From NCBI RefSeq assembly GCF_001403735.1, contig NZ_CXPG01000012.1, forward strand, positions 124,001 to 188,000: a stretch of 64,000 bases of DNA, in the 5' to 3' direction. Positions 3,861 through 63,856 of the stretch are shown here, piece by piece. How positions within the stretch are numbered: the first letter of the stretch is position 1; each line of letters starts with the position of its first letter. A program made the translations under genes and the position numbers. The DNA is from Jannaschia rubra. Its GTDB lineage: Bacteria > Pseudomonadota > Alphaproteobacteria > Rhodobacterales > Rhodobacteraceae. The notes beneath the pieces were generated by a model that was not told the DNA's origin, searched no databases, and saw only the letters and a program-made list of their open reading frames with translations.

Positions 3861-3869
3861 GCAGCGCCC

Positions 3870-5216: not shown

Positions 5217-5752
5217 GCGTCCGGGCGCAGCGGCTCCGCATCCACGCGGGGCGTGTTCAGGTTGCCGGGCCGCACGCCGTCCAACAGATCGTCGTCGAGC
5301 GACTTGCCGTGCAGGACGCTCACGTCGCCCGTCGTCTCCAGCACCACGGCGCGCACCTCCGTTAGGTGAAGCACGTTCGCCTCGCGCAGCTTGGCCGACA
5401 GTTCCGACCGGGTGATATGGGCGCTCGCCATGTTCCCCTCCAGTACCTTGCCGTCCTTCATCAACAGGATCGGGTTGTTGTCGGTCAGTTCCTGCACCGC
5501 CGACCAGCGTTCGCGCATCAGGCCGATCACCCATTGCACCGCGAACAGCGACGCCATCGCCATCAGCCCGTGCCACAGCGCCGTGTCGGGGTTCAGCACC
5601 GTTCCCGCCAGCACCGACCCGAAGGACACCGTGACCGCGAAGTCATAGGACGACATCTTGGAAAACGCGCGCAGCCCCGCCAGCCGCACGCAGAGGATCA
5701 TGAACGGCACCATGACCGCCGCGTCGATCAGATGTGTGGCCCAGCCCGGCAT
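5213..5752 (-). CDS. DUF421 (YetF-like) membrane protein
   Basis: 179 residues from ATG 5752, chosen because GGGAGG lies just upstream; the open frame extends nine codons further. Two or three N-terminal transmembrane helices, with SSYDFAVTVSFGSVLAGT in between, are followed by a cytoplasmic domain with NNPILLMKDGKVLEGNM. This is the DUF421/YetF signature. The family is widespread; function is not settled, and links to spore and envelope physiology are reported only in Bacillus. The gene converges on the VWA gene and is divergent from the M48 protease gene. Confidence 0.88.
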   Translation of the reverse strand: MPGWATHLIDAAVMVPFMILCVRLAGLRAFSKMSSYDFAVTVSFGSVLAGTVLNPDTALWHGLMAMASLFAVQWVIGLMRERWSAVQELTDNNPILLMKDGKVLEGNMASAHITRSELSAKLREANVLHLTEVRAVVLETTGDVSVLHGKSLDDDLLDGVRPGNLNTPRVDAEPLRPDA

Positions 5753-5835
5753 CGTCGGTCCTCCCTCGTTGCAGGCCAACGGGTCGCGGGCGATGCCTGT
5801 TCCCTTCCCCGGGCCCCGCCCCCATATTCATAGCC

Positions 5836-6528
5836 ATGATAAAGCTGCCCATCCTCCTTCTCGCCATCGGCTACGGCCTCGTGATGTGGCTGTTCTCGGC
5901 ATGGCGGCTGAAGCGCCAGATGGACGCGACCTCCACCCCTCTGTCCGACCCGGGGCTGGAGGCCGAGATGGCGCGCATGGCCGACGTCCTCGACCTCGAC
6001 CGCATCCGCGTGAACGTGCACGAGGTGGAGCCTGTGAACGGCCTCGCCGCCCCCGACGGCCGCATCTTCATCACCCGCGGCTTCCTGCGGAAATACCAGT
6101 CGGGCGAGGTGACGGCCGCGGAACTCGCCAGCGTCGTCGCGCATGAACTGGGGCACGTGGCCCTTGGTCATTCGCGGCGGCGGCTGATCGACTTCTCGGG
6201 GCAGAACGCGATCCGCGTGGTGCTGATGGGCGTCCTGGGTCGCTTCATCCCGGGCATCGGCCCGCTGATCGCCAACGCCGTGGCAAGCGTGATTACCGCG
6301 CGCCTGTCCCGGCAGGACGAATACGAGGCCGACGCCTACGCCAGCGCCCTTCTTGTCAAGGCGGGCATCGGCACCGGGCCGCAGAAGTCCATGTTCACCA
6401 AGCTCGGGCGCCTTACCGGCGCAGGCGGGCAAGGCACGCCCGCCTGGCTCCTCAGCCATCCCCGCACCGAGGAACGCATCGCCGCGATCGAGGCGAACGA
6501 GGCGCGCTGGAAGCTCCCCGCCGATTAA
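5836..6528 (+). CDS. M48-family metalloprotease (HtpX-like)
   Basis: 230 residues. One N-terminal transmembrane helix (residues about 3-20) is followed by a peptidase M48 domain with the zinc motif HELGH in SVVAHELGHVALGHS (about residue 110). The downstream EYEADAYA provides the third ligand glutamate. A second hydrophobic hairpin (GRFIPGIGPLIANAVASVI) lies between them, as in HtpX-type membrane proteases. It probably degrades misfolded membrane or periplasmic proteins. The ATG at 5836 is chosen because the hydrophobic helix begins right there. Confidence 0.9.
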   Translation: MIKLPILLLAIGYGLVMWLFSAWRLKRQMDATSTPLSDPGLEAEMARMADVLDLDRIRVNVHEVEPVNGLAAPDGRIFITRGFLRKYQSGEVTAAELASVVAHELGHVALGHSRRRLIDFSGQNAIRVVLMGVLGRFIPGIGPLIANAVASVITARLSRQDEYEADAYASALLVKAGIGTGPQKSMFTKLGRLTGAGGQGTPAWLLSHPRTEERIAAIEANEARWKLPAD

Positions 6529-49870: not shown

Positions 49871-51004
49871 ATGACAATATTCAAGTTCACAGAGGCGCGG
49901 GTTCGCGACCTCCCACTAGGCTCGGGCATCCACAGGGATACGGACGTGAAGGGCCTACTCTGCATCTGCCACAAGACGACGAAGACCTTCGCTGCCCAGG
50001 GCGATGTGAGGCGGAACAAGCGCCACGTCCGCACTGTGCGCGTCAAGATCGGGCGCACCGACCTGGTGCGTCTGGGCGAGGCGCGAAACGAGGCCAGAAA
50101 GCTGATGGCCACGATCCAGTCTGGTGTCGACCCGACCGCTGGACCCGAGGAGACGGGCATGACGCTGGAACAGGCCCTCACCACGCATCTGAAAGAACGG
50201 GACCTCTCGCCCGCGTCGGTCAAGAACTACCAGTATCACATGGATCAGTATCTCGGGCGTCTTCGACGTCGTGCGGTGGCAGACATATCACGCCAAGACT
50301 GCCGAGACCTCTTGGACACGCTGACGAAGCGACACGGACGGACCACGGGCGGATCGGTGATGCGCACGGTGCGAGCGATCATCAACACCGCCCGCAGGCA
50401 CGACGAGACCATAGCGGCCAATCCCATAGACGCGATCCGTGTGCCTGCGACTGCCAGACGGCAGGTCGATGAATTGGATGTTGCGGCATTTTGGAGCGAG
50501 ACCTCAGCGTCGTCGGGCGTAATGCGCGATCTGCACCGCACCTTCCTGTTGACTGGCGCTCGCCGCAGTTCGTTGCTCGGTGTGAAGCGGGCCGACTTCG
50601 ATCCTGATCGGGGCATCCTCACTTTTACGCACATGAAGGTGGGCGGTGCATGGTCGTTCCCTACTGGCCGCTGGCTGACGGAGACGCTGCGGGCGAGATT
50701 GGCGGAGGACGAACCGCTCTCGTCTGAGTGGCTGTGGCCGTCGCCAACCTCTGCGACTGGTCGGATCGCCGAACCCAAGCGCAAGGGCATACCGTCGCCC
50801 CATGCCCTTCGTCACCATGCCCGGACGTTCATGATCGCCGCTGGTGTGCCCTACGCCGAGGGGGCTCTGCTTCTGGGCCAGAGGCTGCCGGGCGCATCGG
50901 GTGGCTATGTGCATCAGTCACATCTGGTCGAGGCCTTGAGACCGTACGCGCAAGCGCTTGAGGACTACATCCTGGCGCTCGCGAATGACGGTACGGTGGC
51001 TTAA
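49871..51004 (+). CDS. Tyrosine-type site-specific integrase
   Basis: 377 residues. The N-terminal arm-binding domain (1-90, KFTEARVRDLPLGSGIHRDT) is followed by a core-binding SAM-like domain (about 95-190) and the catalytic domain. Catalytic arginine I is in LLTGARRSSLLG (about 230), the HxxR box is PSPHALRHHARTF (about 311-314) and the nucleophile tyrosine is in SGGYVHQSH (about 345). It directs integration at the adjacent tRNA-Thr. It is the first gene of the element, pointing inward. Confidence 0.94.
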   Translation: MTIFKFTEARVRDLPLGSGIHRDTDVKGLLCICHKTTKTFAAQGDVRRNKRHVRTVRVKIGRTDLVRLGEARNEARKLMATIQSGVDPTAGPEETGMTLEQALTTHLKERDLSPASVKNYQYHMDQYLGRLRRRAVADISRQDCRDLLDTLTKRHGRTTGGSVMRTVRAIINTARRHDETIAANPIDAIRVPATARRQVDELDVAAFWSETSASSGVMRDLHRTFLLTGARRSSLLGVKRADFDPDRGILTFTHMKVGGAWSFPTGRWLTETLRARLAEDEPLSSEWLWPSPTSATGRIAEPKRKGIPSPHALRHHARTFMIAAGVPYAEGALLLGQRLPGASGGYVHQSHLVEALRPYAQALEDYILALANDGTVA

Positions 51005-51053
51005 CTCGTTGGCATCAAATGCAAGTGCAGACTGATAACCTGACAGCATCGAG

Positions 51054-51078
51054 ACCCATTTGGGTACATCTGGATGTA
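51054..51078. promoter_or_regulatory. Two abutting dyads upstream of the AlpA-like gene
   Basis: ACCCATTTGGGT (51054-51065) is palindromic, and TACATC-TG-GATGTA (51065-51078) follows, sharing one base. They end just before the AGAGG ribosome-binding site of the gene at 51092, where a repressor could block transcription. Confidence 0.5.
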
Positions 51079-51091
51079 GAGGTTTATCACC

Positions 51092-51280
51092 ATGACGACC
51101 GAAAGAACCGACACCCCGTGGATGACCAGCGAGCAGGCCGCAGGCTACCTCTCGGTCTCCAAGGGCACTATGCACAACTGGCGTAGCAAGGGCGCAGGCC
51201 CTCGCTACCGCACCGTCGGACGGATCGTCCGATACCACCGCGACGACCTCGACGCTTTTCTAATGGAGGGCGCGGCGTGA
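51092..51280 (+). CDS. AlpA/excisionase-like HTH protein
   Basis: 62 residues. The MerR-like winged-helix pattern of the excisionase/AlpA family is WMTSEQAAGYLSVSKGTMHN, then WRSKGAGPRYRTVGRIVRYH and RDDLDAFL. In satellites and prophages such proteins activate excision or act as regulators. AGAGG lies upstream, and the ATG follows two dyads. The stop overlaps the next gene's start. Confidence 0.88.
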   Translation: MTTERTDTPWMTSEQAAGYLSVSKGTMHNWRSKGAGPRYRTVGRIVRYHRDDLDAFLMEGAA

Positions 51281-51726
51281 GCGATTGGACTGCGGCACGG
51301 CGGGCTGCGAGGATCGCGGAAGTTTCCGGCATAGAGGTCAAGAGGGCCGACGTGTCCCCCGCAGACAAGGACCGCATTGAGCTCGCCGTCATGCGGATTG
51401 GTGGACCTCGCCGAAACCAGGTTTTCTACCGCTCGCTGTCGGACGCCTGCGCCCAAGAGGGTTGGCCACTTGAACACCCCATGACGATCTGGACGGTCGC
51501 GATGTACGCGAACGTTTTCCCCGTGCAGCGCCTCAAGGGCGACGCTCGGGTTGTCGAAGGGCCGATACATTTCACGGGGCCGGACTTCGCGCTAACGAGC
51601 TCCAACCTCGACCTGTTCTGGGGAGACACCGTGCTGGTCGCCCTGGCGCTGAAACGCCGTGACGCGCCAGGCGTGGACAAGATGCTCTACCGCCGGGCTG
51701 GCGCAGGACCTTACCACCGCGCCTGA
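51277..51726 (+). CDS. Hypothetical element protein (149 aa)
   Basis: GTG start overlapping the previous stop by four bases (GTGA). It is soluble, with no signal or membrane segment. Recognisable features are a basic N-terminus (DWTAARRAARIAE), a central RRNQVFYRSLSDACAQEG and a C-terminal part (DTVLVALALKRRDAPGVDKM) that might fold as a small alpha/beta domain. I know no family for it. Tight coupling to the AlpA-like gene suggests a role in control or replication of the element. Confidence 0.6.
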   Translation: MSDWTAARRAARIAEVSGIEVKRADVSPADKDRIELAVMRIGGPRRNQVFYRSLSDACAQEGWPLEHPMTIWTVAMYANVFPVQRLKGDARVVEGPIHFTGPDFALTSSNLDLFWGDTVLVALALKRRDAPGVDKMLYRRAGAGPYHRA

Positions 51727-51876
51727 CGGCCAGCGAAGGCCAGCCCCGCGCGAAGTGTTGGTATGCAGGTGCCAGCCACCACGGTATTGTTCTGTGAGAA
51801 GGAGCGGACTGCCGCCGCAAGGCAATCCGCTCTGAAAGAACCCGAACAGCAACAATCGAGTAGAAGGGACACGGCA

Positions 51877-52113
51877 ATGTCCATGACTGAAAATACCACG
51901 CGTGAGGTTGACAGCACGCCATTGAAAGACCTCCTGACGACAAGGCAGGCCGCAACCCTGACAGGGCACCCACCAACAGTGCTGCAAGCCTTCCGCAACC
52001 GTCGCAACAACACCAAGTACAAGAACGCAGGACCCGACTACGTGAAGATCGGGACCGCAGTCTTCTACGAGCGATCCGTGATTGCAGCTTACGTCGAAAA
52101 CCGGCGGGGCTGA
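51877..52113 (+). CDS. Small HTH protein (second excisionase-like)
   Basis: 78 residues from ATG 51877, with AGAAGGGA upstream. LLTTRQAATLTGHPPTVLQA, then FRNRRNNTKYKNAGPDYVKI and GTAVFYERSVIAAYVENRR, fits the winged-helix pattern of excisionase-like DNA-binding proteins. It lies one base before the start of the primase-helicase gene. It may be a replication-initiation helper that binds the origin. The 150-base leader contains a hairpin (51803-51813 with 51821-51831). Confidence 0.78.
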   Translation: MSMTENTTREVDSTPLKDLLTTRQAATLTGHPPTVLQAFRNRRNNTKYKNAGPDYVKIGTAVFYERSVIAAYVENRRG

Positions 52114-52114
52114 C

Positions 52115-54682
52115 ATGACCAAAGACACTGATGCGTCGCAACTGGCGCCGCTGGTCGAAGCCGGATACCAGCTAATCCCGCTGCATAACTTCGCTTTTCA
52201 GGATGAGCATAAGGGTAAGCGCCGAAAGCGCGGCAAGAGCCCAGTCCATGGCAACTGGACCAAGAAGCCATATCGTTCATCCGATCAAGTCACGCACATG
52301 GAAGCTGGCGATAACGTCGGGGTTCGCCTCAAGGCAAGCGACCTCGTGATCGACGTGGACCCGCGCGCATTTCCAGACGGCGAGACCCTCGCGACCGATA
52401 ACCCGTTCACCCGTCTCTGCGAGGCCGTTGGTTTTGACCCCGATAAGTATCCGACCGTGGCGACGGGCGGCGGTGGATTGCACATCTACATGACGAAGGG
52501 CACCGAGAGGTCTGTCAGGGACAGCCTGCCTGATTATCCGGGCGTCGAGTTCAAGGCCCTGGGACGTCAGGTCGTCGCGCCAGGTTCGATCCACCCAGAC
52601 ACCCTCAATGCCTATACATGGCTTCAAGGCAGGCCTCTTGACGACCTTTGGCTCGGCGCACCCGCCGCGCCCGATCTGCTCTTGGGCCTGATCGAAAGGC
52701 CAAAGGGTTCTGCTCCCAGCGGCGGCGGTGAGCACGATCAGGAAGAACTGGCGAAGATGCTGGACGGACTGGACCCCGAGAATTTCCGCGACCATGATAT
52801 GTGGCTGACGCTGATGCAGGCTTGCCATCATGCCACTGCTGGTGATGGGCGCGAGGAATTCGTGGAGTGGTGCACCCGCGACCCGGACTATGCCGATCAT
52901 GGCGGCGTCGTCGGCCTGCGATGGGACAGCCTTCACGCCGATAACGACGGGACGCGGGTCACGTACAAGACGCTCCACAAGATCATGCGCGACGCGGGCA
53001 TCGGCGATCACATCCCGCAACCGCTAGCGCCTGACGACTTCGACGACCTCGATCCTGACGACCTGCCCGAGGGGGCGTTGACGGTGGAAAGGAAGCCAAA
53101 GCCAAAGATCAGGACCGGCGAAGGCAGGCTGATCGATATGACCGCCGCCGCGAAGAAGGCGCTTTTCGATGCTGCTGGCCATGAGGTCCTGCAACGCCAT
53201 GGCCAGTTGATCCGTCCACTCCGCCTAGGACGATCGGCCGATGAGGATGGCGTCCGTCACCAGGCGGGCGCGACCGTCCTCCTGCCCGTGAATGAACACT
53301 GGCTTCAAAAGCGCATGGCACAGACCGCCAAATGGTACAGGCTGGCCGTCGAGAAGTCCTCGGACGAAGGCGGCAAGGGCAAGGTGAAGGAACATGACAC
53401 CGATCCGCCGCTCAAGGTCGCGCGTCTGATCCTGAACGATCAGGGCGACTGGCCCTTCCATGCCATGACGGGAATGGTCGCATCGCCGACCGTGGACGTG
53501 ACGACCGGACAGGTGGTTGACCGGCCAGGCATTGACCCACGCACGGGGCTGCTGGCCGTCTTCGAACCCGCCGACTTCCCGCGCATCGACCCAGACGTCG
53601 GCCATGACGGCGCAAAAGAGAGGCTGCGCCGCGTCGAACATGCCCTGTTCAGGGCGATGCCGTTCGTTGACGAAGGCAGTCGTGCGGTCGCCATGTCGGC
53701 ACTGATAACCGCGCTCGTCAGGCCGACGCTCCGTGCGGCCCCGATGCACCTTTTCGATGCGGCCATGGCTGGCACAGGCAAATCCAAGATGGCCTCGGTG
53801 GTTGGCGTCTTGGCTACGGGCGTCGAACCGTCCGCATCTGCCTGGGCAAGCTCGGACGACGAGAACGAGAAGCGCATCGCCGCTCTCTACCGCAAGGGCA
53901 ATCCGGTGATCCTGTTCGACAACGTAGACGCCAAGAAAGGCGACAGGCTGGACGGAAACATCTTGAACATCGTGCTCACGCAGGACCCCGCATCGATCCG
54001 CGTCCTGGGCAAGACCGAGGACGAGACCCTGAATACCAGACTGATGGTGCTCGCGACCGGCAACAACATCGTCGTTGCAGGCGACTGCTGCCGCCGCGCG
54101 GTCAAGTGTCGTCTTGACGCCAAATGCGCAGAGCCTGAACGCCGCGAATTCGACTTCGATCCAGTCCAGGTCGCCAGAGAAAATCGAGGGCGTCTCGTGA
54201 CTGACCTGCTTGAAGCCCTCTCCGCCTACATCCATGCAGGCCGCCCGACCGATCCTGCCAAGCTAGGCTCCTTCGAGGACTGGACCTCAGTACGCGGGCT
54301 GCTGGTCTGGTGCGGACTGGCTGATCCCGCCGTCACAATCGCGGACATCAAGGCCACGGATCAGGATCGCGATGACCTCATGACCGCCCTTGAGAACTGG
54401 CGCCATGCCTTCGACGGTGATTGGGTCACAGGCGCAGACCTGGAGGCATTCGTGGCCGCATCCGCGGATGACCTTGATGAACGGCTGGGGCGTGAGATGC
54501 ACGACGGCGCTGAGGCGATGGTGGAGGCCCTGTTCAACAACAAGACCGACAAGAACTGGATTGGGCGGTCGCTCAACTCGACCCAGGGGGTTGCGGCTGG
54601 CAACTTCTATCTGGAGGTCAAGCCGGGACGTTCTGCAAAGTTTCGGGTCCTGGATGCCGAGATTATGGACGGGCGCGCATGA
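52115..54682 (+). CDS. Primase-polymerase/helicase replication protein
   Basis: 855 residues. The N-terminal bifunctional primase-polymerase domain (1-190) has DLVIDVDPRAF, whose D-x-D would bind metal, and TGGGGLHIYM. A PriCT-2-like domain follows (about 213-270, LDPENFRDHDMWLTLMQACH). The C-terminal half is a P-loop helicase with Walker A AGTGKSKMASV (about 552) and Walker B VILFDNVD (about 599), then LMVLATGNNIVV as sensor 1. It would initiate replication of the excised element. The origin-like repeat lies just downstream. ATG 52115 is chosen after the previous TGA. Confidence 0.9.
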   Translation: MTKDTDASQLAPLVEAGYQLIPLHNFAFQDEHKGKRRKRGKSPVHGNWTKKPYRSSDQVTHMEAGDNVGVRLKASDLVIDVDPRAFPDGETLATDNPFTRLCEAVGFDPDKYPTVATGGGGLHIYMTKGTERSVRDSLPDYPGVEFKALGRQVVAPGSIHPDTLNAYTWLQGRPLDDLWLGAPAAPDLLLGLIERPKGSAPSGGGEHDQEELAKMLDGLDPENFRDHDMWLTLMQACHHATAGDGREEFVEWCTRDPDYADHGGVVGLRWDSLHADNDGTRVTYKTLHKIMRDAGIGDHIPQPLAPDDFDDLDPDDLPEGALTVERKPKPKIRTGEGRLIDMTAAAKKALFDAAGHEVLQRHGQLIRPLRLGRSADEDGVRHQAGATVLLPVNEHWLQKRMAQTAKWYRLAVEKSSDEGGKGKVKEHDTDPPLKVARLILNDQGDWPFHAMTGMVASPTVDVTTGQVVDRPGIDPRTGLLAVFEPADFPRIDPDVGHDGAKERLRRVEHALFRAMPFVDEGSRAVAMSALITALVRPTLRAAPMHLFDAAMAGTGKSKMASVVGVLATGVEPSASAWASSDDENEKRIAALYRKGNPVILFDNVDAKKGDRLDGNILNIVLTQDPASIRVLGKTEDETLNTRLMVLATGNNIVVAGDCCRRAVKCRLDAKCAEPERREFDFDPVQVARENRGRLVTDLLEALSAYIHAGRPTDPAKLGSFEDWTSVRGLLVWCGLADPAVTIADIKATDQDRDDLMTALENWRHAFDGDWVTGADLEAFVAASADDLDERLGREMHDGAEAMVEALFNNKTDKNWIGRSLNSTQGVAAGNFYLEVKPGRSAKFRVLDAEIMDGRA

Positions 54683-54756
54683 CCGATGATGCCAGTCATG
54701 TAAGGTCGCCGTTGCGCTCTAATGTTGCGAACGGATCTTTTCGGCGGGCGGACCAA

Positions 54757-54894
54757 GGGGCGGGCATATGCGCGCATTTCTATATACAGAGGCCGTATAG
54801 GCTACCTACCTCTTACAGCTCATAAAACGACTGGGTAGTGTAGGTAGGCTATTCGACTTCCGATTATAAGAATGCGCGCATATGTCCGCGCCCC
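54757..54894. repeat. Nested inverted repeat, candidate replication origin
   Basis: The outer arms contain CATATGCGCGCATT (54765-54778) and AATGCGCGCATATG (54871-54884), exact complements. Imperfect GGGGCGGG and CCGCGCCCC extensions flank them. The inner arms ATAGGCTACCTAC (54797-54809) and GTAGGTAGGCTAT (54840-54852) match at 12 of 13 positions around a 30-base A+T-rich loop. The structure lies 75 bases after the primase gene. It could be a double- or single-strand origin or a packaging site. Confidence 0.6.
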
Positions 54895-55214
54895 TCGACA
54901 GTTTCACCGAGAAAAGGGTCCCAAAGGACCGTTCTGCCGAAAAGGCGTGCCGTCCTTCATCCTGGTTGAAGGGGTCTATTCGGTCGCCCCTCCATGCAAC
55001 GCTGGTTTCCCGCAGTGGGTGAACACGACATCCTGTCCTGAGAGAGCGAGGACGCCTCGCGCACGTGACAAGCCGCCTCCGTTCTTCCTGCCAGAGCGCC
55101 GCCCCACTGACAATCGATCAGGGGGCGTTTTGATCGGAAGGATAACGGGATCAGGGGCTTGGCGCGTGGAGGGCATCCCGAGCACCGAAACTGACACCGC
55201 AAGAGGGCCTACGA
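54895..55214. other. Gene-free stretch between the origin-like repeat and the terS-like gene
   Basis: One open frame runs through it (54872-55306), but its composition, lack of a ribosome-binding site and overlap with the repeat argue against coding. It holds short G/C-rich inverted pieces such as AAAGGGTCCC and CAAAGGACC but nothing I can name. It may contain the promoter of the following genes. Confidence 0.4.
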
Positions 55215-55847
55215 TTGAGCCGACTTTACCAAGACAGCGCACCAACGGCAGGATCAAAGGCCTCGACGGGGATGATGCATCCACATGCCAGCGAGCCGTC
55301 GCCTGAGTTCAAGCGCGCGTTCCTGGAACGCCTGGTCGAGGTTGGCAACGTGACGGTCGCCTGCGCCCAACTGGGACTGCCCAGGCCGAACGTCTATTAC
55401 TGGAAGCACCGCGACGACGACTTCCGTCGTGGCTGGGACATCGCCATGGCCATCTTCCAGGACCAGTTGACCAACGACGTGATGGACACCGCCCGCGAGC
55501 TCGGCCTCGGCCGCTGGAAGCAGGCCACCGACGAGGACGGTGAGCCCGTGCTGAACGACGACTTCGAGCCGGTCCTGATCCTGGACGTCTCGCACGTCGA
55601 CGCCCGCATCCTCTCGAAGCTGATCGACAAGCGGGTGCCGAACGTGGACGGCCCCGCCCAGACCAACCTCCAGGTTAACACGACCGTGAACAACAGGCTC
55701 CCTTCCAGGCCGAGGCTCGTGCAGCCCGAGAGGGCCGTACGGAGCTCCGTGGTGACCTCGGGGCGCCCGGGCGGTCGACACGGCGTCGAAGATGCCGAGT
55801 TCGTCCAGGGGTCACCACAGGAGACCGGGGGATACGCCGATGACTGA
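55215..55847 (+). CDS. Terminase small-subunit-like DNA-binding protein
   Basis: 210 residues from TTG 55215, with AGAGGG nine bases upstream; ATG 55272 is the alternative. The N-terminal third has a homeodomain-like HTH, EFKRAFLERLVEVGNVTVAC then AQLGLPRPNVYYWKHRDDDF, as in phage TerS proteins that recognise pac or cos DNA. A helical middle (FQDQLTNDVMDTARELGLGR) and a disordered basic tail follow. No large terminase is present. A lone terS is a hallmark of satellites that redirect a helper phage's packaging. Confidence 0.75.
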   Translation: MSRLYQDSAPTAGSKASTGMMHPHASEPSPEFKRAFLERLVEVGNVTVACAQLGLPRPNVYYWKHRDDDFRRGWDIAMAIFQDQLTNDVMDTARELGLGRWKQATDEDGEPVLNDDFEPVLILDVSHVDARILSKLIDKRVPNVDGPAQTNLQVNTTVNNRLPSRPRLVQPERAVRSSVVTSGRPGGRHGVEDAEFVQGSPQETGGYADD

Positions 55848-56127
55848 CGATGCAATACAGGTCACGATCGTGAAGCCGGGAGGCACAGCGACGGTGAAGT
55901 TCGCTGAAGGGTACGAGACGATGCGGGTGGCCATCGGCTACCTGCACGATCCGAACGATGGCCTGATTGCTGAGATGCAGGCGGGGCGGGACGCAACGCC
56001 CTGGGCCTCCCGTGCCGTGAGGGATGACGCCACCTGGTCGATTGAGCTTCGAGGCGACCTGGACGACGCAACCCGCGGGCACCTCCTGGACTGGATCGCT
56101 AGCACCGCGTATTTTGAAGACGCATAA
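55840..56127 (+). CDS. Hypothetical element protein (95 aa)
   Basis: ATG 55840 overlaps the end of the terS-like gene by 8 bases, so the two are probably translated together. The protein is acidic and soluble, with a beta-like N-terminus (IQVTIVKPGGTATVKFAEG) and a helical C-terminus (DDATRGHLLDWIASTAYFED). No family is recognised. The overlap suggests a packaging or capsid-related accessory role, which is inference. Confidence 0.6.
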   Translation: MTDDAIQVTIVKPGGTATVKFAEGYETMRVAIGYLHDPNDGLIAEMQAGRDATPWASRAVRDDATWSIELRGDLDDATRGHLLDWIASTAYFEDA

Positions 56128-56240
56128 CCGCCTGGAACTGCATCCCAACCTGACTTGACCGCTAGGAGCCCTAAAATTCAGATGCAGCGCTTTCCCCCAA
56201 TGACTACTGTCCTTGCGCCATAAGTTCCCGCAACGACGTC

Positions 56241-56837
56241 TTACACTGTTTCGCTAACAAGTTTTTGAGAAGATTCGGCGGCAAAGCTGTAAAAGTCTTT
56301 CTTATGATGCCTTTCGAAACTTCTCATGAGATAGCTTTTAACTAGCTCATGAAGTGTATATTTTCCTTCTTCGGAAAGAGGCTTTTGTTGAATGGAATTC
56401 ATGGCATCTTCTGTAAAGCCTTTTAAGCGTTCATCGCTAATATCTGGATCAAAGTTCTTGAAGAAAATGGCGATGTTGGATTGGGAGGTCGCCATTTGTA
56501 GGGTCGTGCGCGCTTCTACAGCGACTGCTTCAGACAATGATTGGATGACTGAAGGGCTGTTGAGCTTACTAATCTCACCCTGAGCGTTGGCGTAGGCCTT
56601 TAGGCCAACGATGACATGCTGGCTGGAAAAATCTGATAAGTCCGGCATGCCGTTTCTGCTAGTGGCTACCACACGCCCCAATGCTTCATCACTATCGTAT
56701 CCTTGAGTGAATATATCTGTCAGAAAATACAGCGCATATCCGATGGACCAAAGCGGCTTATCTTTTGTCTTTGCTTTCTTCATTGCCCATCTAATCGCAA
56801 GAAATGCGATAAATATGATGATAATAGTGGTTAGCAT
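56241..56837 (-). CDS. Low-GC membrane-anchored hypothetical protein (198 aa)
   Basis: One N-terminal transmembrane helix (TTIIIIFIAFLAIRWAM) with a basic stop-transfer (KKAKTKDK) is followed by about 175 cytoplasmic, mostly helical residues. Examples are EAVAVEARTTLQMATSQSNI and YTLHELVKSYLMRSFERHHK. Its base composition is clearly more A+T-rich than the element backbone, and it points against the surrounding genes, so it looks like an inserted cargo gene. No family is recognised. A membrane-anchored defence effector is possible but unsupported by motifs. Confidence 0.65.
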   Translation of the reverse strand: MLTTIIIIFIAFLAIRWAMKKAKTKDKPLWSIGYALYFLTDIFTQGYDSDEALGRVVATSRNGMPDLSDFSSQHVIVGLKAYANAQGEISKLNSPSVIQSLSEAVAVEARTTLQMATSQSNIAIFFKNFDPDISDERLKGFTEDAMNSIQQKPLSEEGKYTLHELVKSYLMRSFERHHKKDFYSFAAESSQKLVSETV

Positions 56838-57234
56838 ATGTCGACTCCAATTGTGCCGTTTGCTGCGGGCTTACATTCTACTGATGCGGGCGTAGTGGCC
56901 GGAGAAGATATGTAACACGACTGGCTCAGCGACAGAACAGTCGGGAACGAAGACAAGGTTAAAAAAGCTCTGGTTGTGTCGCGGGGTCGAAGGCTTTGAC
57001 GACGCCTGGTTACTACGTGACAGTCTGAGCTCACCAGCATGAATTGAGCGGCGTCCCTAACTTGTACGGTGCCCAGTCCTGTATTTTGCACCTTGGACCG
57101 CGAAATTGCCTTAAATATTAGCGCTTTAAAGGCCTACAGCCACTGACTGAATGTCAGTCGGGCGGCTCGCTGGCTTCTTTTCGGACGCCTCTGCGGCATT
57201 GTGCCTGCATCCCCGCACCGCCAGAGGAGAGCTG
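56838..57234. other. Gene-free stretch with a dyad
   Basis: A weak open frame (56831-57091, minus) has no ribosome-binding site and a non-protein-like composition. The only clear structure is GACTGA-ATG-TCAGTC at 57145-57159, a possible operator about 80 bases before the gene at 57235. The promoter of the divergent low-GC gene should also be here. Confidence 0.4.
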
Positions 57235-57609
57235 ATGACCGAGCGCCCGAAACCGGTACTGCCGACGCTCCGCTACAAGAATGCTGAGCGAGCATTGCGT
57301 GATCTTTTCGAAGAGGCGGCTGCTGATGCACGGCTCGACCCAGAAGCCAGCATGCGCTCGAACGTCATCACACTCTTGGCTCACGCCTGGAATGTCAGCG
57401 GGACAATCCACTGGCAGCGAGGCTGGGTTCGCGAGGCGATGTTGGTCTTGGCAGCCGCGGGTTGCATCGTCCCAAGTGCCCAGATCATGCGGTGGTATCG
57501 GTCGCGGATCAGCGAGGCACCCGGCACGTTCAGGAACACCGCTCGCGCGCCAGTTGAGATACTGGAACAGATGGACCTAGCATTCCTTGACGCCAACAAT
57601 TTGTTTTAG
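57235..57609 (+). CDS. Hypothetical protein (124 aa)
   Basis: ATG 57235 with AGAGGAG upstream; in-frame ATG 57151 is less likely. The sequence is helical and soluble, with ERALRDLFEEAAADARLDPE and VREAMLVLAAAGCIVPSAQI. No family is recognised. Codon use and GC are like the element backbone, not like the A+T-rich cargo on either side. It converges with the reverse transcriptase gene, with 40 bases between the stops. Confidence 0.6.
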   Translation: MTERPKPVLPTLRYKNAERALRDLFEEAAADARLDPEASMRSNVITLLAHAWNVSGTIHWQRGWVREAMLVLAAAGCIVPSAQIMRWYRSRISEAPGTFRNTARAPVEILEQMDLAFLDANNLF

Positions 57610-57649
57610 GTCCGCAACCCTCGAGTTCATAATCTGATAGGATGCGGAG

Positions 57650-58558
57650 CTAGTGGTCGAACCGCTGCAAGTTGTCACGCTCAGCGGCCATGGCTTCGGC
57701 CTTTGATCGCCAGGCAGGGTCAATCTGACTAGCCTCAAACAGACGCCCCGTTAGACGCCGGGCTACAATAAGTTTTTCACGACCGTTTGGCAAAGAGTCG
57801 AAGGTTGCCAAGTCGCCCGCTATGCCCCTCTGCCGTTTGTTGGGCAGCTTCATACCCTCTTTGGTGACGGCAACCCCGGTGATGATCCGGGGCTGTCCTG
57901 GGCGGAACAGCTTGGTCTTGTGGCCATACAGCCTGTAGGAGGCAAACACCTTCCTTGCCGCGTATATGAGACCCCTAGTCGCACCAGTTCCTGTGAACAC
58001 GACATCATCGACATAAACGGTCATGATGCATCCGTTTACTTTGGCCAGCGCGGCCAAAGTCTCGAACATGTCCTCATAGGCAAAGTATGAAAGAATTGGG
58101 CTTGAACTGCTGCCCGTTGGCAGGTGCCCGTCAACTGTAAGTAATTTGGTCAATATGCCCGCGACGTCGCCAGTGCAAAGCATACGGTCTAGAAAGAAGT
58201 GATGTACTGCCTGTGATCTGACAGACGGATAGAATTTCCGGACGTCAATTTTCACACAGCCGGTGTCCACAGAATGCCCGCTGGCATTGGTGATGTAGGA
58301 CCTCCCTTTGATCGCAGAATGGAGGTAATCTGGAGTATCAATTTTGGCTAAAAGCGCGGCCAGTCGCTTATGAATCTTATCTAGCTTTGGCTTAGGTTCC
58401 TGGATTGGTCGCCCGGTTCTCTTGTCCGTCCATCTTTTGTAATTGTCCGCGGCAGCGCAAAGTTCATTCAACTCATCAAGCGTCACCCGCAACCGATCCG
58501 CCAGCATTTGTGGGCTGGTGATCTTGTAGAAAATGGACTGGTTGCGGGGATAGCTCAA
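57650..58558 (-). CDS. Retron-type reverse transcriptase
   Basis: 302 residues from a TTG at 58558 that overlaps the HTH gene's stop (TTGA) and has AGGAG upstream; a TTG at 58597 is the alternative. RT motifs: first catalytic aspartate in VKIDVRKFYPSV (about 105) and the YVDD box in TVYVDDVVFTG (182-185). Two retron hallmarks are present: NAxxH in ITNASGHSVD (91-95) and a VTG-type motif as IITGVAV (226-228). It would make msDNA from a structured RNA encoded upstream in the operon. No fused effector domain is seen. The RT is A+T-richer than the backbone. Confidence 0.92.
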   Translation of the reverse strand: MSYPRNQSIFYKITSPQMLADRLRVTLDELNELCAAADNYKRWTDKRTGRPIQEPKPKLDKIHKRLAALLAKIDTPDYLHSAIKGRSYITNASGHSVDTGCVKIDVRKFYPSVRSQAVHHFFLDRMLCTGDVAGILTKLLTVDGHLPTGSSSSPILSYFAYEDMFETLAALAKVNGCIMTVYVDDVVFTGTGATRGLIYAARKVFASYRLYGHKTKLFRPGQPRIITGVAVTKEGMKLPNKRQRGIAGDLATFDSLPNGREKLIVARRLTGRLFEASQIDPAWRSKAEAMAAERDNLQRFDH

Positions 58559-58863
58559 CGCTCGGCGCTCCTGTAATCCGAAATGGTAGAAACCCAATCC
58601 AGCATCTTCACCGCCTTGTCGGCAACGAACACTCTGACATTCTCGGATTTTCCCGCCCCCTCAACCCTTTCAGCGAACAATAGTAGGGAAGACATAGGAA
58701 TGTCGAAAGCGTCGGAATACTTCTGGAGTGTGGCCATGGAGACGTTCTTGTCGCCCTTCTCGATTTCCGACACGTAGGATTTTGACAGGCCCAAGCGCTC
58801 CGCGGCATCCACCTGTGATAGGTCATGATAGACCCTCACAAGGCGCAGGGCTTTATTTAGCAT
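58555..58863 (-). CDS. XRE-family HTH protein, retron partner
   Basis: 102 residues from ATG 58863, with GGAGGG just upstream; a GTG at 58887 is less likely. The N-terminal Cro/CI-type HTH is LSQVDAAERLGLSKSYVSEI then EKGDKNVSMATLQKYSDAFD. A C-terminal extension of about 40 residues (NVRVFVADKAVKMLDWVSTI) has no known domain. Its stop overlaps the RT start. HTH-partnered retrons are known and are grouped as one of the published retron types (type VI as I recall). The protein may be repressor, effector or antitoxin. Confidence 0.9.
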   Translation of the reverse strand: MLNKALRLVRVYHDLSQVDAAERLGLSKSYVSEIEKGDKNVSMATLQKYSDAFDIPMSSLLLFAERVEGAGKSENVRVFVADKAVKMLDWVSTISDYRSAER

Positions 58864-58887
58864 TTTCTCCCTCCAAACATTGAACAC

Positions 58888-59040
58888 CTAGGGGCCGTCG
58901 AAGAAGAACCGCGCCAGTTTCACGATAGCTTTCACTATCCAAAACGCGGCCAGTAGTAGCGACCTGTTCCGAAGAACACGCCGATACCAACGACGGACCC
59001 GTTGCCCGGTGTTCAGGGGCTTCTTGGGATCATTTCCCAT
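58888..59040 (-). CDS. Small basic membrane peptide at the head of the retron operon (50 aa)
   Basis: ATG 59040 has GGAGGA upstream at good distance; the stop TAG is at 58888, just before the HTH gene. A hydrophilic start (MGNDPKKPLNTGQ) is followed by a strongly basic stretch (RVRRWYRRVLRNR) and a hydrophobic helix (SLLLAAFWIVKAIVKLARFFF). This is the form of membrane-acting toxins and holin-like peptides. The longer open frame upstream overlaps structured RNA sequence and is not coding. It could be the retron effector. No homolog is known to me. Confidence 0.62.
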   Translation of the reverse strand: MGNDPKKPLNTGQRVRRWYRRVLRNRSLLLAAFWIVKAIVKLARFFFDGP

Positions 59041-59062
59041 TTCAGCATCCTCCTGGGCATCA

Positions 59063-59333
59063 CCACCGGACAACCCGGTGGCTGTGCGCCGACCCCAAGA
59101 GGCAAAGTGGGCAAACGGTAACCCCCAGGTATCCCCGTGCCGCAACGTGCGCTGCGGCCTTAAGTCGGAAGTCGTCGCCGATCGCATCTCTCGCTCGCGA
59201 TCGCCGCTGCCCCCAAAGTGGGTAGAGACCGAAGCCTCCTCGACCGGCAAGCCGGTCAGCCTGTGGCGCTATCCTTCGCCTGAACATTGCATTCTGAATA
59301 GCAGGTCTGATCGCTTATGCAAGAAGAATGTTC
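59063..59333 (-). ncRNA. Candidate retron msr-msd RNA (structured region)
   Basis: Five stems lie in a row upstream of the membrane peptide, HTH and RT genes: 59063-59069/59075-59081 (7 bp), 59139-59144/59153-59158 (6 bp), 59179-59185/59197-59203 (7 bp), 59242-59248/59251-59257 (tight hairpin) and 59282-59292/59317-59333 (11 bp with a 6-base bulge). Retron RNAs sit upstream of their RT and are highly structured. I did not find convincing a1/a2 end repeats or the branching G, so ends are approximate and the call is inferred from place and structure. Confidence 0.45.
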
Positions 59334-59370
59334 GCGTACAGCGAATTTAATCCGCTCCGCTGCGTCGAAA

Positions 59371-59385
59371 ACTACAACATGTAGT
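59371..59385. promoter_or_regulatory. Operator-like dyad upstream of the retron operon
   Basis: ACTACA-ACA-TGTAGT is a 6+6 dyad with a 3-base spacer, 38 bases outside the structured region and 331 bases before the peptide start. It is the kind of site an XRE dimer would bind. No gene lies between 59041 and 59591. Confidence 0.4.
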
Positions 59386-59591
59386 GAAGCATTGCACTTC
59401 GCCGGGGCGCTACTTCGCCAGCGTTCAGCGGCAGGTCCTCACTCGCTGGTCCCCCGCACCGCCCAAACGCGGCATCTTATACCAATGATGCGACTGTCAG
59501 GCATGGCGTCGTCGCATCTCGGGTGGCGCTCGGTCCTCCAACTGCCGGGCGCCACCAACCCAATTCCGACGCCAGTGAGAGGAGCCAACGA

Positions 59592-60239
59592 ATGGCAGAC
59601 GACCCGAATAAACGACTGGCGGAGCTGCGCGACGAGCGCGCACCCCTGGTCGAAGAACGCGAGAAGGCCCGCGCCGAGGCCACGCAGGACATGATCGCGG
59701 GCAAGAAACCCGCAGGGACCGCTGCGGCGCTGGCCGAACGCATCCAGATCGTGGACGACGCAATCGCTGAGTTGCGGGACCGATCTGCCCACGCCGCAGC
59801 GAGCCAGGACCGCGCCAAGCGGACCCGTCAGGTGCAGGGCGCGATCGATACGGCCAGCGACCGCCGCAAACTGGCCGAAGCCGTGGACAAGGCGCTGACC
59901 GACCTGGCGGCTAATTGGTCCGCCTACCGAGAGGCCGTGCGCAACGGCGTGGGCCAGACCGCTGCGGCGGGCGGCGATGTCGGTCCCATCGACCGGGTGC
60001 TGACTAACAACCGCGCCAGCGAGGCCCTTATCAAGGCCATGATCGCCGCGGGAGGCAGCGAGCTTTCCCGCGCCTTCGGCATCGATACTCCGATCAAGGT
60101 TCGCCATTCGATCAGCCTGACCGACGCCGAGCGCCGTGTCGCGGAGTCCCTGAACCTGGAACTGCTGCGGCTCAGGGCGGCGTCACCGCAGACGCACTTG
60201 GCGGCGCAAGCTGCCAAAGAACTGGAGGCACTGAAATGA
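59592..60239 (+). CDS. Hypothetical coiled-coil protein (215 aa)
   Basis: ATG 59592, with GAGAGGAG upstream. The N-terminal 60 residues (NKRLAELRDERAPLVEEREK) and the C-terminal part (LTDAERRVAESLNLELLRLR) are heptad-like helices; the middle is glycine- and alanine-rich. There is no membrane segment. It overlaps the next gene by four bases (ATGA). It resembles small phage scaffolding or capsid-size proteins only in composition; no family is recognised. GC is like the element backbone. Confidence 0.62.
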   Translation: MADDPNKRLAELRDERAPLVEEREKARAEATQDMIAGKKPAGTAAALAERIQIVDDAIAELRDRSAHAAASQDRAKRTRQVQGAIDTASDRRKLAEAVDKALTDLAANWSAYREAVRNGVGQTAAAGGDVGPIDRVLTNNRASEALIKAMIAAGGSELSRAFGIDTPIKVRHSISLTDAERRVAESLNLELLRLRAASPQTHLAAQAAKELEALK

Positions 60240-60676
60240 GTAAAGAAGGCGAACGCCACGCGGCGGAACTGATCCGCCTGGAGGTCAAACGCAAGGAACT
60301 GGAAGACGCGCTTGGGCGCCTAGCGCGCGACGAGGCCGAGGCCCAGGAGGTCATGGACCTCGCACAGCACGTGCAACGACTGGAACAGGAGGTCGAGTCC
60401 GCTCGCGCCGCCGGACAGATGGAAAAGAAGGATGAAGACATGAACGATACGGTTACCAAGCGGGCAGTCCGCAACATGGCGAAGGTCGACGGGCAACTGG
60501 ATGCCCTGGCCAAGTCGATGCAGGCCGACGGGGAGACCGTCGAGGCTGCGTACGTCCGGGCGCTCGGCAGCGACATGGGCAAGTCGATGCTCCGCACCCG
60601 CGAGGAGGCGTACGCCCTCGCGACCGGCGGCGTCACCGAGGCAGATGTGGCTGCGGCTCGCGCGGACCTCACCTGA
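60236..60676 (+). CDS. Hypothetical coiled-coil protein (146 aa)
   Basis: Starts in an ATGA overlap with the previous gene. Residues 1-60 form a strong charged coiled coil (AAELIRLEVKRKELEDALGR, ARDEAEAQEVMDLAQHVQRL), and the rest is helical (TVTKRAVRNMAKVDGQLDAL). The C-terminus (GGVTEADVAAARADLT) is small and acidic. No family is recognised. It probably forms a complex with the product of 59592-60239. A terminator follows 32 bases later. Confidence 0.6.
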   Translation: MSKEGERHAAELIRLEVKRKELEDALGRLARDEAEAQEVMDLAQHVQRLEQEVESARAAGQMEKKDEDMNDTVTKRAVRNMAKVDGQLDALAKSMQADGETVEAAYVRALGSDMGKSMLRTREEAYALATGGVTEADVAAARADLT

Positions 60677-60707
60677 TCCGCCGACCCGACGGACACCTAC
60701 AGAATTG

Positions 60708-60742
60708 GCCGCGCAGACAATCAGTCTGCGCGGCGTCTTTCG
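60708..60742 (+). terminator. Terminator of the coiled-coil gene pair
   Basis: An 11-bp stem, GCCGCGCAGAC (60708-60718) with GTCTGCGCGGC (60724-60734), loop AATCA, followed by GTCTTTCG. Stem strong, T-run short. Confidence 0.7.
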
Positions 60743-60876
60743 TTCTGGTGTGTCTCGCGGGCCACACCATTATTTGTGGGTGCGGTCCCAAACGTTGGTA
60801 TGCGCGCTGCCCGCGTTCTGGGACTCTCCTCGAAGGCGAGCGCACCCGCGCCGTCGTATTGTAAGGAGCGAAAGCA

Positions 60877-61110
60877 ATGAGCGAAGTCATCAACAGAGAA
60901 GTCACCGAGGATCAGGTCGTATACACCATGGAAGACGGTTCGTCCCATTCCATGCCGCGCGAGTTTTCCGAAAGGCTCGGTGAAGCCATCTCGTCCGGCA
61001 TGGCGTTGCTTGAGGCCAAAGGCCGTAGCGATGACGAGGCTGCGGCCTGGATCAAGCAACATGTCGAGAGGATCATCCTCCGGCACGAAGCGGACGACGC
61101 AGCGGCTTAG
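60877..61110 (+). CDS. Hypothetical acidic protein (77 aa)
   Basis: ATG 60877, with AAGGAG upstream. Soluble and acidic: REVTEDQVVYTMEDGSSHSM, then helical ERLGEAISSGMALLEAKGRS and AAAWIKQHVERIILRHEADD. No family is recognised. It is monocistronic by spacing: a terminator lies upstream, and a 10-bp GC hairpin (61118-61145) lies 8 bases after its stop. Confidence 0.6.
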   Translation: MSEVINREVTEDQVVYTMEDGSSHSMPREFSERLGEAISSGMALLEAKGRSDDEAAAWIKQHVERIILRHEADDAAA

Positions 61111-61117
61111 GCGAGCG

Positions 61118-61145
61118 GCCCCGCCCGGCACGCTCCGGGCGGGGA
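61118..61145 (+). terminator. GC-rich hairpin after the 77-aa gene
   Basis: CCCCGCCCGG (61119-61128) and CCGGGCGGGG (61135-61144) pair exactly around CACGCT. There is no T-run, so it could be a pause site or a weak terminator. Confidence 0.45.
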
Positions 61146-61268
61146 CGATAGGGCCCGTCGAGCGTAGCAATCTGTCATCGTCTCCCAGCTTACGCTGCGG
61201 CTCACTCGCGACAAAGTGGTCCCATCTGCCGGGCGATTGTCGCCCGCTGCATAGAAGGAGAATATACC

Positions 61269-61799
61269 ATGACAAGAACAACATACTTCGCCTCCGCACC
61301 CGATGGGACCGAACTGACGCGCAAGACCGACCGTAAGTACACCCACGCCGTCCTGCTGGAAGGCGAAAATGGATGGCGCATTGCGGGCTTCTGCGGACGC
61401 CTCGACCTTGCGCACAAGAAGCAGACCGAGCACCCCGGCAGCATCGTGGTCGAGGCTCAGGTCCTAGGTGTCGTTTCGGCTGATGAGACCGCGTCCGAGG
61501 CCACCGAGGACGCCGAACCGACGGGCCATGAAGCGGTCGGGGCATCGGAGCGAGAGCAGAGCGTCGACGATAAGATCAGGAACGCGAAGATCACGGGTCC
61601 CGAGCGTCTGGGCACAATCGGTGAGCTAGTGCACGAGTTGCTGATGGACGTCGATAACACATACGTCGAGATTGTCGCCGAGGTGAAGCGCAGGTTCCCC
61701 GCCGCCAAGACTACCGCTCGCTCCGTAGCGTCAGTCGCGGCAGTCCTCCGCAAGAAGGGGGCGTCCGTCCCTGTTCGCCGAAAGGCCAAGGCCCCCTAA
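61269..61799 (+). CDS. Hypothetical protein with C-terminal winged-helix-like domain (176 aa)
   Basis: ATG 61269, with AGAAGGAG upstream. The N-terminal 70 residues (YFASAPDGTELTRKTDRKYT, AVLLEGENGWRIAGFCGR) look like a small beta domain. An acidic linker of about 35 residues follows. Then comes a compact helical domain, LGTIGELVHELLMDVDNTYV with EIVAEVKRRFPAAKTTARSV and a basic end (VPVRRKAKAP). It is plausibly DNA-binding, of the kind used by mobile-element regulators. No family name is certain. The next gene shares a similar T-x-x-x-V-x-x-x-R-x-x-L-R helix. Confidence 0.62.
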   Translation: MTRTTYFASAPDGTELTRKTDRKYTHAVLLEGENGWRIAGFCGRLDLAHKKQTEHPGSIVVEAQVLGVVSADETASEATEDAEPTGHEAVGASEREQSVDDKIRNAKITGPERLGTIGELVHELLMDVDNTYVEIVAEVKRRFPAAKTTARSVASVAAVLRKKGASVPVRRKAKAP

Positions 61800-61868
61800 G
61801 CCCTTGATAGGGTGAGGGTCCTCCGCTAAGCTCAACCCGCAGTGGTGTCATTCTGCGGAGGACCCTGA

Positions 61869-62390
61869 TTGGACAGTAAGAAAGGCAGCGGCGAGACGGC
61901 GAAACAGTTGATAAGGCTGGGCGCGCGCGACGACGAAGCACTTGAGCTCGTTTTGTTTCTGCACCCCGGTGCAAAGACGACCCCAACGACCATCCGGCAC
62001 TACCGTTCTGAGATGCGGGCCGACTTCGAGGACGTGAAAATAGACGGTGAGGCTCCGGGCTTAGATCGGGCGCGACTCCGTGCACTGGTCTTGGGTTGGG
62101 GCGAGGTGCCGTCCACACCAGGCAGTAAACCCACCCAGTCGTATCGCGAAATTACCCGAGATAAGATACTACTATGGTGGACAAACCGGCAGGTGCTCGA
62201 CGCCGTTTTGGCCGCTTGGCCCGACTGCGGGTACACGACGAACAACGTCAGCGACCTCCGGTCGAGGCTGCGAGCAAAGGACGAGCTTGTCCCAGACGAT
62301 GACGCGGCGCGAAGGTGGCAAGAGGGTAGGCCGTGGGCGATCGATCCGAAACCACCTGCCGGTCTGAAGCCACCCGCGAAATCAGTCTAG
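61869..62390 (+). CDS. Hypothetical helical protein, possible DNA-binding (173 aa)
   Basis: TTG start at 61869 after a GGAGGA site. ETAKQLIRLGARDDEALELV and NRQVLDAVLAAWPDCGYTTN, with NVSDLRSRLRAKDELVPDDD, suggest an N-terminal and a C-terminal helix-turn-helix-like unit. The second resembles the C-terminal domain of the preceding gene. No family is recognised. Start choice is moderately sure, since no ATG lies near. It is 102 bases upstream of the SIR2 gene but differs from it in base composition. Confidence 0.58.
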   Translation: MDSKKGSGETAKQLIRLGARDDEALELVLFLHPGAKTTPTTIRHYRSEMRADFEDVKIDGEAPGLDRARLRALVLGWGEVPSTPGSKPTQSYREITRDKILLWWTNRQVLDAVLAAWPDCGYTTNNVSDLRSRLRAKDELVPDDDAARRWQEGRPWAIDPKPPAGLKPPAKSV

Positions 62391-62491: not shown

Positions 62492-63856
62492 TTGGAATAT
62501 CAAACCTACAAAGATCAGATCACCTCGGAAGTTGCATCGCAGATAGAGAAACTGGGTTGTCAGCCTGTACTTTTTCTGGGTTCGGGGATATCGCGCCGAT
62601 ATTTTAATGCACCAAATTGGGTTGAGCTTTTACAACAGTTGGCCGAGGAGTGCCCACTGATTGATAAGGACTACGCCTACTATGCTCAGTCATGCTCAAG
62701 CGCCCCTCAAATAGGAAGCATCTTCGCTGATAAGTACCGAGAGTGGGCTTGGGGGAGCGGCAAAAACCAGTTTCCAGTCTCTCTATTCGAGTCAGACGTT
62801 GCGCCAGATGCGTTCTTAAAACACGCGGCGGCAACGATATTGAAGGGCAAGTGTCCCGCGACTTTGGCGGGCGTCGATGCCACGTATTCAGACGAAATCG
62901 CGGCAATGCAGGCGATAAAGCCCCATGCGGTTTTGACTACAAATTACGACACCCTGCTTGAGAGCATATTTTCCGATCACGCCGTTGTAATTGGCCAATC
63001 CGCTTTGAAGGGCATGCCCTTCGCCGTAGGCGAAATATTCAAATTTCATGGATGCGTTAACGATATCGAGCAAATTATCCTGACTTCGGAAGACTACGAG
63101 ACTTTCTACAAGAAAAAGAAATTTATCGCCGCACGATTGCTTTCGCTCTTCAACGAGCACCCAATGCTAATAGTCGGATATGGGGCAAACGACCCGAACG
63201 TTCAAGCGATCCTTTCGGACATTGACGAAGCGCTTGCCTTGCCTGGTTCACTAATCGAAAACATATACTTTGTTGAATATGATGCGGAGGCTGAGGCCAA
63301 AACTTCTTTGCCGATTGAGAAGCTGATCCAAATCGAAGACAACCGTAGCGTCCGGGTCAAACTCGTGGTCACCTCTGACCTCGAATGGGTATTCAAGGCC
63401 TTCAAATCACCCGATAACCTGAACTCCATTCCGCCAAGTATCATGCGCGCGATTCTCGCTAGGTCCTATGAGTTGGTAAGGTCTGATATCCCAAGAACCA
63501 AATTGGATGTTGATTTTGACTTCCTTGAGCGCAAGCTGGAAAACCAAGACGAGTTTGCGCAGCTTTTCGGCATAACAACCGTAAATGATGCATCCACAAT
63601 TTCCGCCAAATTCCCTTACTCGATCACGGAGCTTGGTAAGAAACTTGGAGGAAATAGTTGGCATCTAGCAGATAAGCTGATGAAAATGATCAAGGCCGAT
63701 ACGGGCGTGGATATAAAAGAAAGTGACAGCCGCTTTCAACATATGGTCAAGGTCAACAATTCCAAGTTTCATAAATACTCAGACGACGCCTTCGATCTTC
63801 TGAAAAAAGTGCAAGCGGCTGGCCATTGTGAAACTGAATGGCTGGAAGACACCTGA
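62492..63856 (+). CDS. SIR2-domain protein, probable anti-phage NADase
   Basis: 454 residues from a TTG at 62492, with GGGGAG upstream. The N-terminal half is a SIR2 fold: PVLFLGSGISRRY (about 26-37), the LTTNYDTLLES motif (148-158, with N151 and D153), catalytic-type histidine in IFKFHGCVND (H186) and IVGYGANDPNVQ (227-238). It lacks the zinc-binding cysteines of deacetylases, as in defence sirtuins that cleave NAD+ on infection. The C-terminal 200 residues are helical with no named domain, likely a sensor. The gene is strongly A+T-rich and stands alone, so it looks like recently acquired cargo. Confidence 0.88.
   Translation: MEYQTYKDQITSEVASQIEKLGCQPVLFLGSGISRRYFNAPNWVELLQQLAEECPLIDKDYAYYAQSCSSAPQIGSIFADKYREWAWGSGKNQFPVSLFESDVAPDAFLKHAAATILKGKCPATLAGVDATYSDEIAAMQAIKPHAVLTTNYDTLLESIFSDHAVVIGQSALKGMPFAVGEIFKFHGCVNDIEQIILTSEDYETFYKKKKFIAARLLSLFNEHPMLIVGYGANDPNVQAILSDIDEALALPGSLIENIYFVEYDAEAEAKTSLPIEKLIQIEDNRSVRVKLVVTSDLEWVFKAFKSPDNLNSIPPSIMRAILARSYELVRSDIPRTKLDVDFDFLERKLENQDEFAQLFGITTVNDASTISAKFPYSITELGKKLGGNSWHLADKLMKMIKADTGVDIKESDSRFQHMVKVNNSKFHKYSDDAFDLLKKVQAAGHCETEWLEDT

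Follow-up and report, generated by a model that had tools for sequence, protein, structure and literature searches.

Gene organization and classification of the locus

The window, i.e., the whole stretch of 64,000 nucleotides of Jannaschia rubra DNA that was analyzed, carries on its minus strand, in this order, a palindrome, a structured leader, a gene for a 50-aa peptide, a gene for an XRE HTH protein and a gene for a reverse transcriptase (RT) (Table 1). The order of leader RNA, basic membrane-type peptide, HTH and RT had been recognized in a previous sequence-only reading of the same DNA and is borne out. The accompanying statement that this layout is unfamiliar fails, because RT and HTH match type VI retron models and because the layout is already described in PMC8541194, a paper of 2021. 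According to its passages on the subject, which cite Mestre 2020, type VI retrons consist of an RT, a DNA-binding protein and small auxiliary proteins. PADLOC model RT_VI fits the window RT best, with RT_III-A as the runner-up (E 6.3e-36), and HTH_VI fits the adjoining HTH protein. The 50-aa peptide takes the place of the small auxiliary protein, and the structured msr/msd RNA expected beside the RT operon is represented by covarying hairpins in the leader. Judged by these constituents, the locus belongs to the type VI retrons. Retrons of this type are known anti-phage elements of bacteria, and a role in defence is putative here.

Retron RTs carry NAxxH and VTG motifs, which are present in the window as NASGH and ITG together with a YVDD motif with the invariant DD. 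The listed RT start, TTG 58597, is probably wrong, since the close relative L001 (95% identical) has an in-frame stop within the additional stretch that this start would include. TTG 58558 is preceded by AGGAG and overlaps the stop of the HTH gene as TTGA, and is the most likely start of the RT gene. With this overlap, the translational coupling of HTH and RT suggested earlier is plausible. In 51 of the 63 loci compared below, the likeliest RT start as predicted by script falls inside the HTH gene. For the HTH gene itself, GTG 58887 would yield a protein of 110 aa; ATG 58863, which has a good SD (GGAGGGAG) ahead of it and gives 102 aa, is the most likely start.

Table 1 Features of the retron locus and of its surroundings in the window
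Feature	Position	Strand	Basis
Integrase-like gene	49871-51004		two Pfam models pass the cut-off, Phage_integrase does not
prim-pol	52115-54679		
Terminase-small-like gene	55281-55844		PHROG E 4e-7
RT of the retron (302 aa, start TTG 58558)	57650..58558	-	PADLOC RT_VI E 2.4e-79; motifs
XRE HTH protein, 102 aa	58555..58863	-	PADLOC HTH_VI E 2.5e-34; Pfam HTH_3 E 1.1e-13
Gene for 50-aa basic, hydrophobic peptide	58888..59040	-	59/63 loci, controls 0/24 and 0/63
Structured leader, candidate retron ncRNA	59049..59288, ends approximate	-	fold z -2.23; consensus fold
SD strand of peptide gene, CCCAGGAGG	59049..59057	-	P(unpaired) 0.02 on average, against 0.42 in shuffles
Inner hairpin of SD domain	59062..59082	-	all cells paired
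Anti-SD strand, CCUCUUGGG	59094..59102	-	pairs with 59057-59049 over 9 bp
Candidate msd hairpin	59179..59203	-	perfect 7-bp stem in window
Two msr-like hairpins	59258-59241 and 59238-59225 (59225..59258)	-	covariation
Conserved AUAGC with G 59269, candidate branching guanosine	59268..59272	-	identical in 8 aligned leaders
Weak promoter-like pair TTGCAT (59322-59317) / TATTCA (59300-59295), 16-bp spacer	59295..59322	-	by eye
Palindrome TTCGC-TGTAC-GCGAA, probable HTH operator	59331..59345	.	exact on minus strand; position across loci
SIR2-domain gene	62495-63856		Pfam SIR2_2 E 9.4e-23; PADLOC PDC-S25 E 1.3e-72

Conservation of the small peptide gene

RT and HTH served to gather related loci, which come from genomes, plasmids, phages and viral contigs. 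HTH_VI was discarded as a genome probe because it is too general (360 of 385 genomes matched), and the genome matches of RT_VI include longer RTs of other kinds. Ninety-four loci with an HTH gene followed by an RT gene were reduced to 63 non-redundant ones at less than 97% RT identity. Loci without a profile-paired HTH, including L003 and L007 (RT about 50% identical), were left out, while L077, L078 and L080 were retained although they are distant (RT 106-132 bits, ORFs of 68-82 aa).

The window peptide starts with ATG at 59040 behind AGGAGG, ends with a stop at 58888-58890 and has a net charge of +10. Its hydropathy over 19 residues (KD19 1.84) lies above the classical transmembrane threshold of 1.6. 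No match was found in Pfam or PADLOC, and the single match to a PHROG 'membrane protein' family is marginal (E 0.061). Peptide genes were scored by a strict rule demanding ATG, an SD-like box, 40-70 aa, a net charge of at least +1, an end near the HTH start and a hydrophobic stretch within the last two thirds. Such a gene precedes the HTH gene in 59 of the 63 loci and in 29 of the 32 clusters formed at 50% RT identity, as compared with none of 24 XRE-HTH loci that lack an RT gene and none of the 63 mirror positions on the opposite strand. The sequence-only reading had made its case dependent on conservation of the peptide frame beside homologous RT genes, and the frame is indeed kept. The four loci missed by the rule are L046, which carries a 33-aa version, the distant L077 and L080 with acidic ORFs of 77-82 aa instead, and L137. 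The latter is the sole locus without a peptide of any form; here, an IS1 InsA gene (2023-2277, Pfam E 3.9e-20) occupies the place of leader and peptide ahead of the HTH-RT pair.

The 59 peptides have a median length of 51 aa and a median net charge of +7. Only 17 of them reach a KD19 of at least 1.6, so many are amphipathic rather than membrane-spanning. The ratio dN/dS is below 1 (0.11-0.74) in all 14 informative of 15 pairs, with few changes per pair and sequences shared between pairs. On this comparative evidence the peptide is under purifying selection, and both the counts against the controls and the dN/dS values argue that it is more than a chance ORF. Note that the peptide is missing from the gene tables of six of the first 12 records examined, where plasmid tables are incomplete. 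When 100 relatives were searched with peptide profile A4, the only clear match was its own locus (E 9.8e-25), with four more at E 0.001-0.007; as A4 also misses the peptides of other type VI clades, this result cannot show that peptide relatives without an RT are absent. Taken across the collection, the comparison shows that the three genes and the leader recur together in distant bacteria. A small basic peptide with an affinity for membranes thus seems to be a standard third gene of type VI retrons.

In a few loci a gene for a ThsB-like TIR protein follows the type VI RT (L174 2977-3936, L179 2893-3858, also L103 and L104), which may represent a fourth gene in some operons of this type; two of these TIR genes were tested and matched PADLOC ThsB with E 7.1e-60 and 5.4e-133. 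In L037, which belongs to a P2-like phage, the neighbour of the retron (3518-4882, minus strand) matches PADLOC candidate PDC-S15 (E 7.3e-98) and is named FRG domain-containing in a RefSeq E. coli relative.

The leader RNA

As a single sequence, the window leader is matched in folding by only 5 of 200 shuffles. Rfam yielded no family above gathering score within 56000-60000. Covariation is seen in an alignment of eight close leaders (A2). In the consensus fold, 16 of 64 pairs have both partners altered in one or more sequences. When the msr-like hairpins are considered along with a third one at 59158-59139, pairing reaches 99.3% of the cells, seven pairs are changed on both sides, and the covariation score is 0.349 versus 0.217 in shuffled alignments, none of 500 shuffles being as high. 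These comparisons show that the leader adopts a conserved RNA fold. By analogy with retron biology, we take G 59269 within the AUAGC stretch as the candidate branching guanosine. The candidate msd hairpin is poorly conserved in sequence among relatives. In retrons, msr-msd is flanked by the inverted repeats a1 and a2. An 8-bp a1/a2 candidate was picked by eye (AGGCGAAG/CUUUGCCU, 59281-59274 / 59107-59100); 78.1% of its cells are paired, no pair is changed on both sides and over 39 loci p is 0.063 against shuffles. The pair is a tentative candidate, for which these data give no support.

A probable operator upstream of the leader

Within the 64 kb, the palindrome has four matches at no more than one mismatch versus 1.77 expected, and 11 of 100 shuffles reach four. 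In the window alone it is therefore not beyond chance, and its weight comes from its position across loci. TTCGC-N5-GCGAA stands ahead of the leader with 9-10 of 10 bases in 40 of the 63 loci (28 exact), the shuffled mean being 6.6; it reaches 8 of 10 bases in 11 loci and, with 6-7, is not detectable in 12. It occurs in 23 of the 32 clusters and in none of 24 control XRE upstream regions. It lies a median of 313 nt from the peptide ATG. In the window, the promoter-like pair was selected by its position against relatives; the script's best pair lay elsewhere (6/12). Among the 40 palindrome loci, 27 have a promoter score of at least 8, and in 24 of these 27 the -35 box begins 20-23 nt downstream of the first base of the palindrome. 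This arrangement is consistent with the palindrome being the probable operator of the HTH protein. The idea that msDNA acts as an operator decoy was rejected, because the palindrome is not enriched inside the ncRNA region (6.84 versus 6.65, none with at least 9).

A predicted helix covering the SD of the peptide gene

The 3' part of the leader is predicted to fold such that the SD of the peptide gene is buried in a 9-bp helix; none of 30 shuffles makes the window SD as inaccessible. In the eight-leader alignment the SD domain, comprising this helix and the inner hairpin, is paired in 97.8% of the cells and has a covariation score of 0.292 versus 0.178, with 0 of 500 shuffles as high. Three of the eight pairs of the inner hairpin are changed on both sides, a number of both-sided pairs that 162 of 500 shuffles also reach, as do 436 of 500 for pair types. 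In the SD helix proper, both-sided changes are absent among the eight leaders and appear once more distant members are added, namely within the clade of the window with L072 and L074 and within the L008 clade. The SD columns are mostly paired in seven of eight multi-member clades.

Across the collection, 50 of 62 loci have an SD whose accessibility falls below the average of 30 shuffles, with a median P(unpaired) of 0.17 and an overall mean of 0.24 versus 0.39 (Wilcoxon p 1.4e-7, uncorrected for kinship). The cluster mean is below 0.3 in only 19 of 32 clusters, and by this measure the SD is not sequestered in most of the enterobacterial prophage group (0.48-0.64 for most), nor is it in L035 (0.87). 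A loop motif, GCAAUYYYG, lies 34-41 nt before the peptide ATG in 14 of the 63 loci (shuffled mean 0.1). It is common to distant loci, absent from the window leader and possibly a protein-binding RNA element. The comparison thus suggests a double lock on peptide production, with a conserved DNA site as one part and an RNA hairpin as the other.

Genomic surroundings

The integrase-like, prim-pol and terminase-small-like genes (49871-62390) along with the SIR2 gene suggest a phage-satellite-like mobile element that carries the retron and has two defence loci. The SIR2 gene is a second candidate defence gene near the retron. Elsewhere in the same genome there is another type VI retron, which belongs to a different clade and has its own peptide (L027 / L075, G000 contig 22, about 4810-5992).

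Possible function of the peptide

We regard the peptide as the most likely effector of this type VI retron because it is a conserved third gene, has a toxin-like form and lies behind two apparent locks. In the reading that we favour, with a little better than even confidence, it would act on the membrane and be restrained by the HTH protein at the promoter, by the SD helix and by the RT-msDNA complex. The HTH protein would bind the palindrome and set transcription of the whole operon, which would make it at least an autoregulator. The SD helix would allow little translation of the peptide. With the leader as its source, the RT would produce msDNA, and the RT-msDNA complex, possibly together with the HTH protein, would restrain the peptide or its expression. 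It would thereby complete the restraint, the part that the antitoxin component plays in other retrons. Disturbance of msDNA or HTH by a phage could then let the peptide accumulate, insert into the inner membrane and stop the infected cell (abortive infection). A membrane toxin kept in check until phage infection, as proposed in the sequence-only reading, is plausible. A more specific and rather doubtful version has the retron RNA gating the effector peptide, whose gene follows the ncRNA directly. The ribosome-binding site would be buried in the 3' domain of the leader, HTH/RT-msDNA would open this domain or keep it shut, and damage to msDNA would be read out as toxin translation.

Alternatively, the peptide could be an adaptor between membrane and nucleic acid, its polybasic half binding msDNA or ncRNA and its hydrophobic helix anchoring RT-msDNA-HTH at the membrane, the site where phage entry would be sensed. 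The N-half is the more basic one in 53 of the 59 peptides, the C-half is hydrophobic or amphipathic, and the peptide strictly co-occurs with an RT among the collected loci. The strong dual lock on expression would, however, be more typical of a toxin, and a downstream ThsB-like TIR gene, which would suit an adaptor, is confined to the four loci named above. We consider an adaptor unlikely. Less likely still, the HTH protein could itself be the effector, e.g., by regulating host genes or by acting as a DNA-binding toxin, with the peptide merely assisting. PADLOC names type VI for its HTH partner, and in other retron types DNA-binding partners are held by msDNA; autoregulation is nevertheless the simpler explanation, given that 40 of 63 loci have the conserved palindrome at the promoter of the operon itself. 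That the small ORF is just a leader or coupling peptide, whose translation sets HTH-RT expression, would fit its place between leader and HTH and the SD inside a helix, but is very improbable as its amino acid character persists although the sequences differ widely, and dN/dS is below 1.

The recurrent peptide, the shared operator and the SD helix provide a loosely described retron type with a candidate toxin and two testable locks. The available passages on type VI retrons give no effector mechanism, and the literature searched yielded no paper on the function, operator or SD helix of the type VI peptide, which may still have been described before.

Comparison with known systems

The window shares its RT and HTH models with type VI retrons (Mestre 2020 scheme; PADLOC RT_VI and HTH_VI) and likewise has a small auxiliary protein adjoining the DNA-binding protein, as stated in PMC8541194; none of the results speaks against membership. 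For the Mu-like phage of Shewanella treated in the same paper (L040), we find a 48-aa peptide at 1977-2123, where no gene is annotated. With the type IV retron Ec48 (Eco6), whose effector has two transmembrane segments (PMC8989520), the locus has the idea of a membrane-type effector in common. It differs by its single short basic helix instead of two and by the presence of an HTH protein, and its RT matches RT_VI best, with RT_IV absent among the 25 of 40 PADLOC models listed. The type I toxin-antitoxin peptides TisB and TimP are likewise short and hydrophobic with translation limited by RNA, the antitoxin of type I systems being an antisense RNA. In the window, unlike there, the SD is predicted to be paired in cis within the same leader, and RT and HTH are attached. 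A further likeness is to the C proteins of restriction-modification systems: Control_protein is the second-best PADLOC model for the window HTH (E 1e-11), and a palindrome upstream of the -35 box is a C-protein feature as well, although operator sequence and operon are different in the window.
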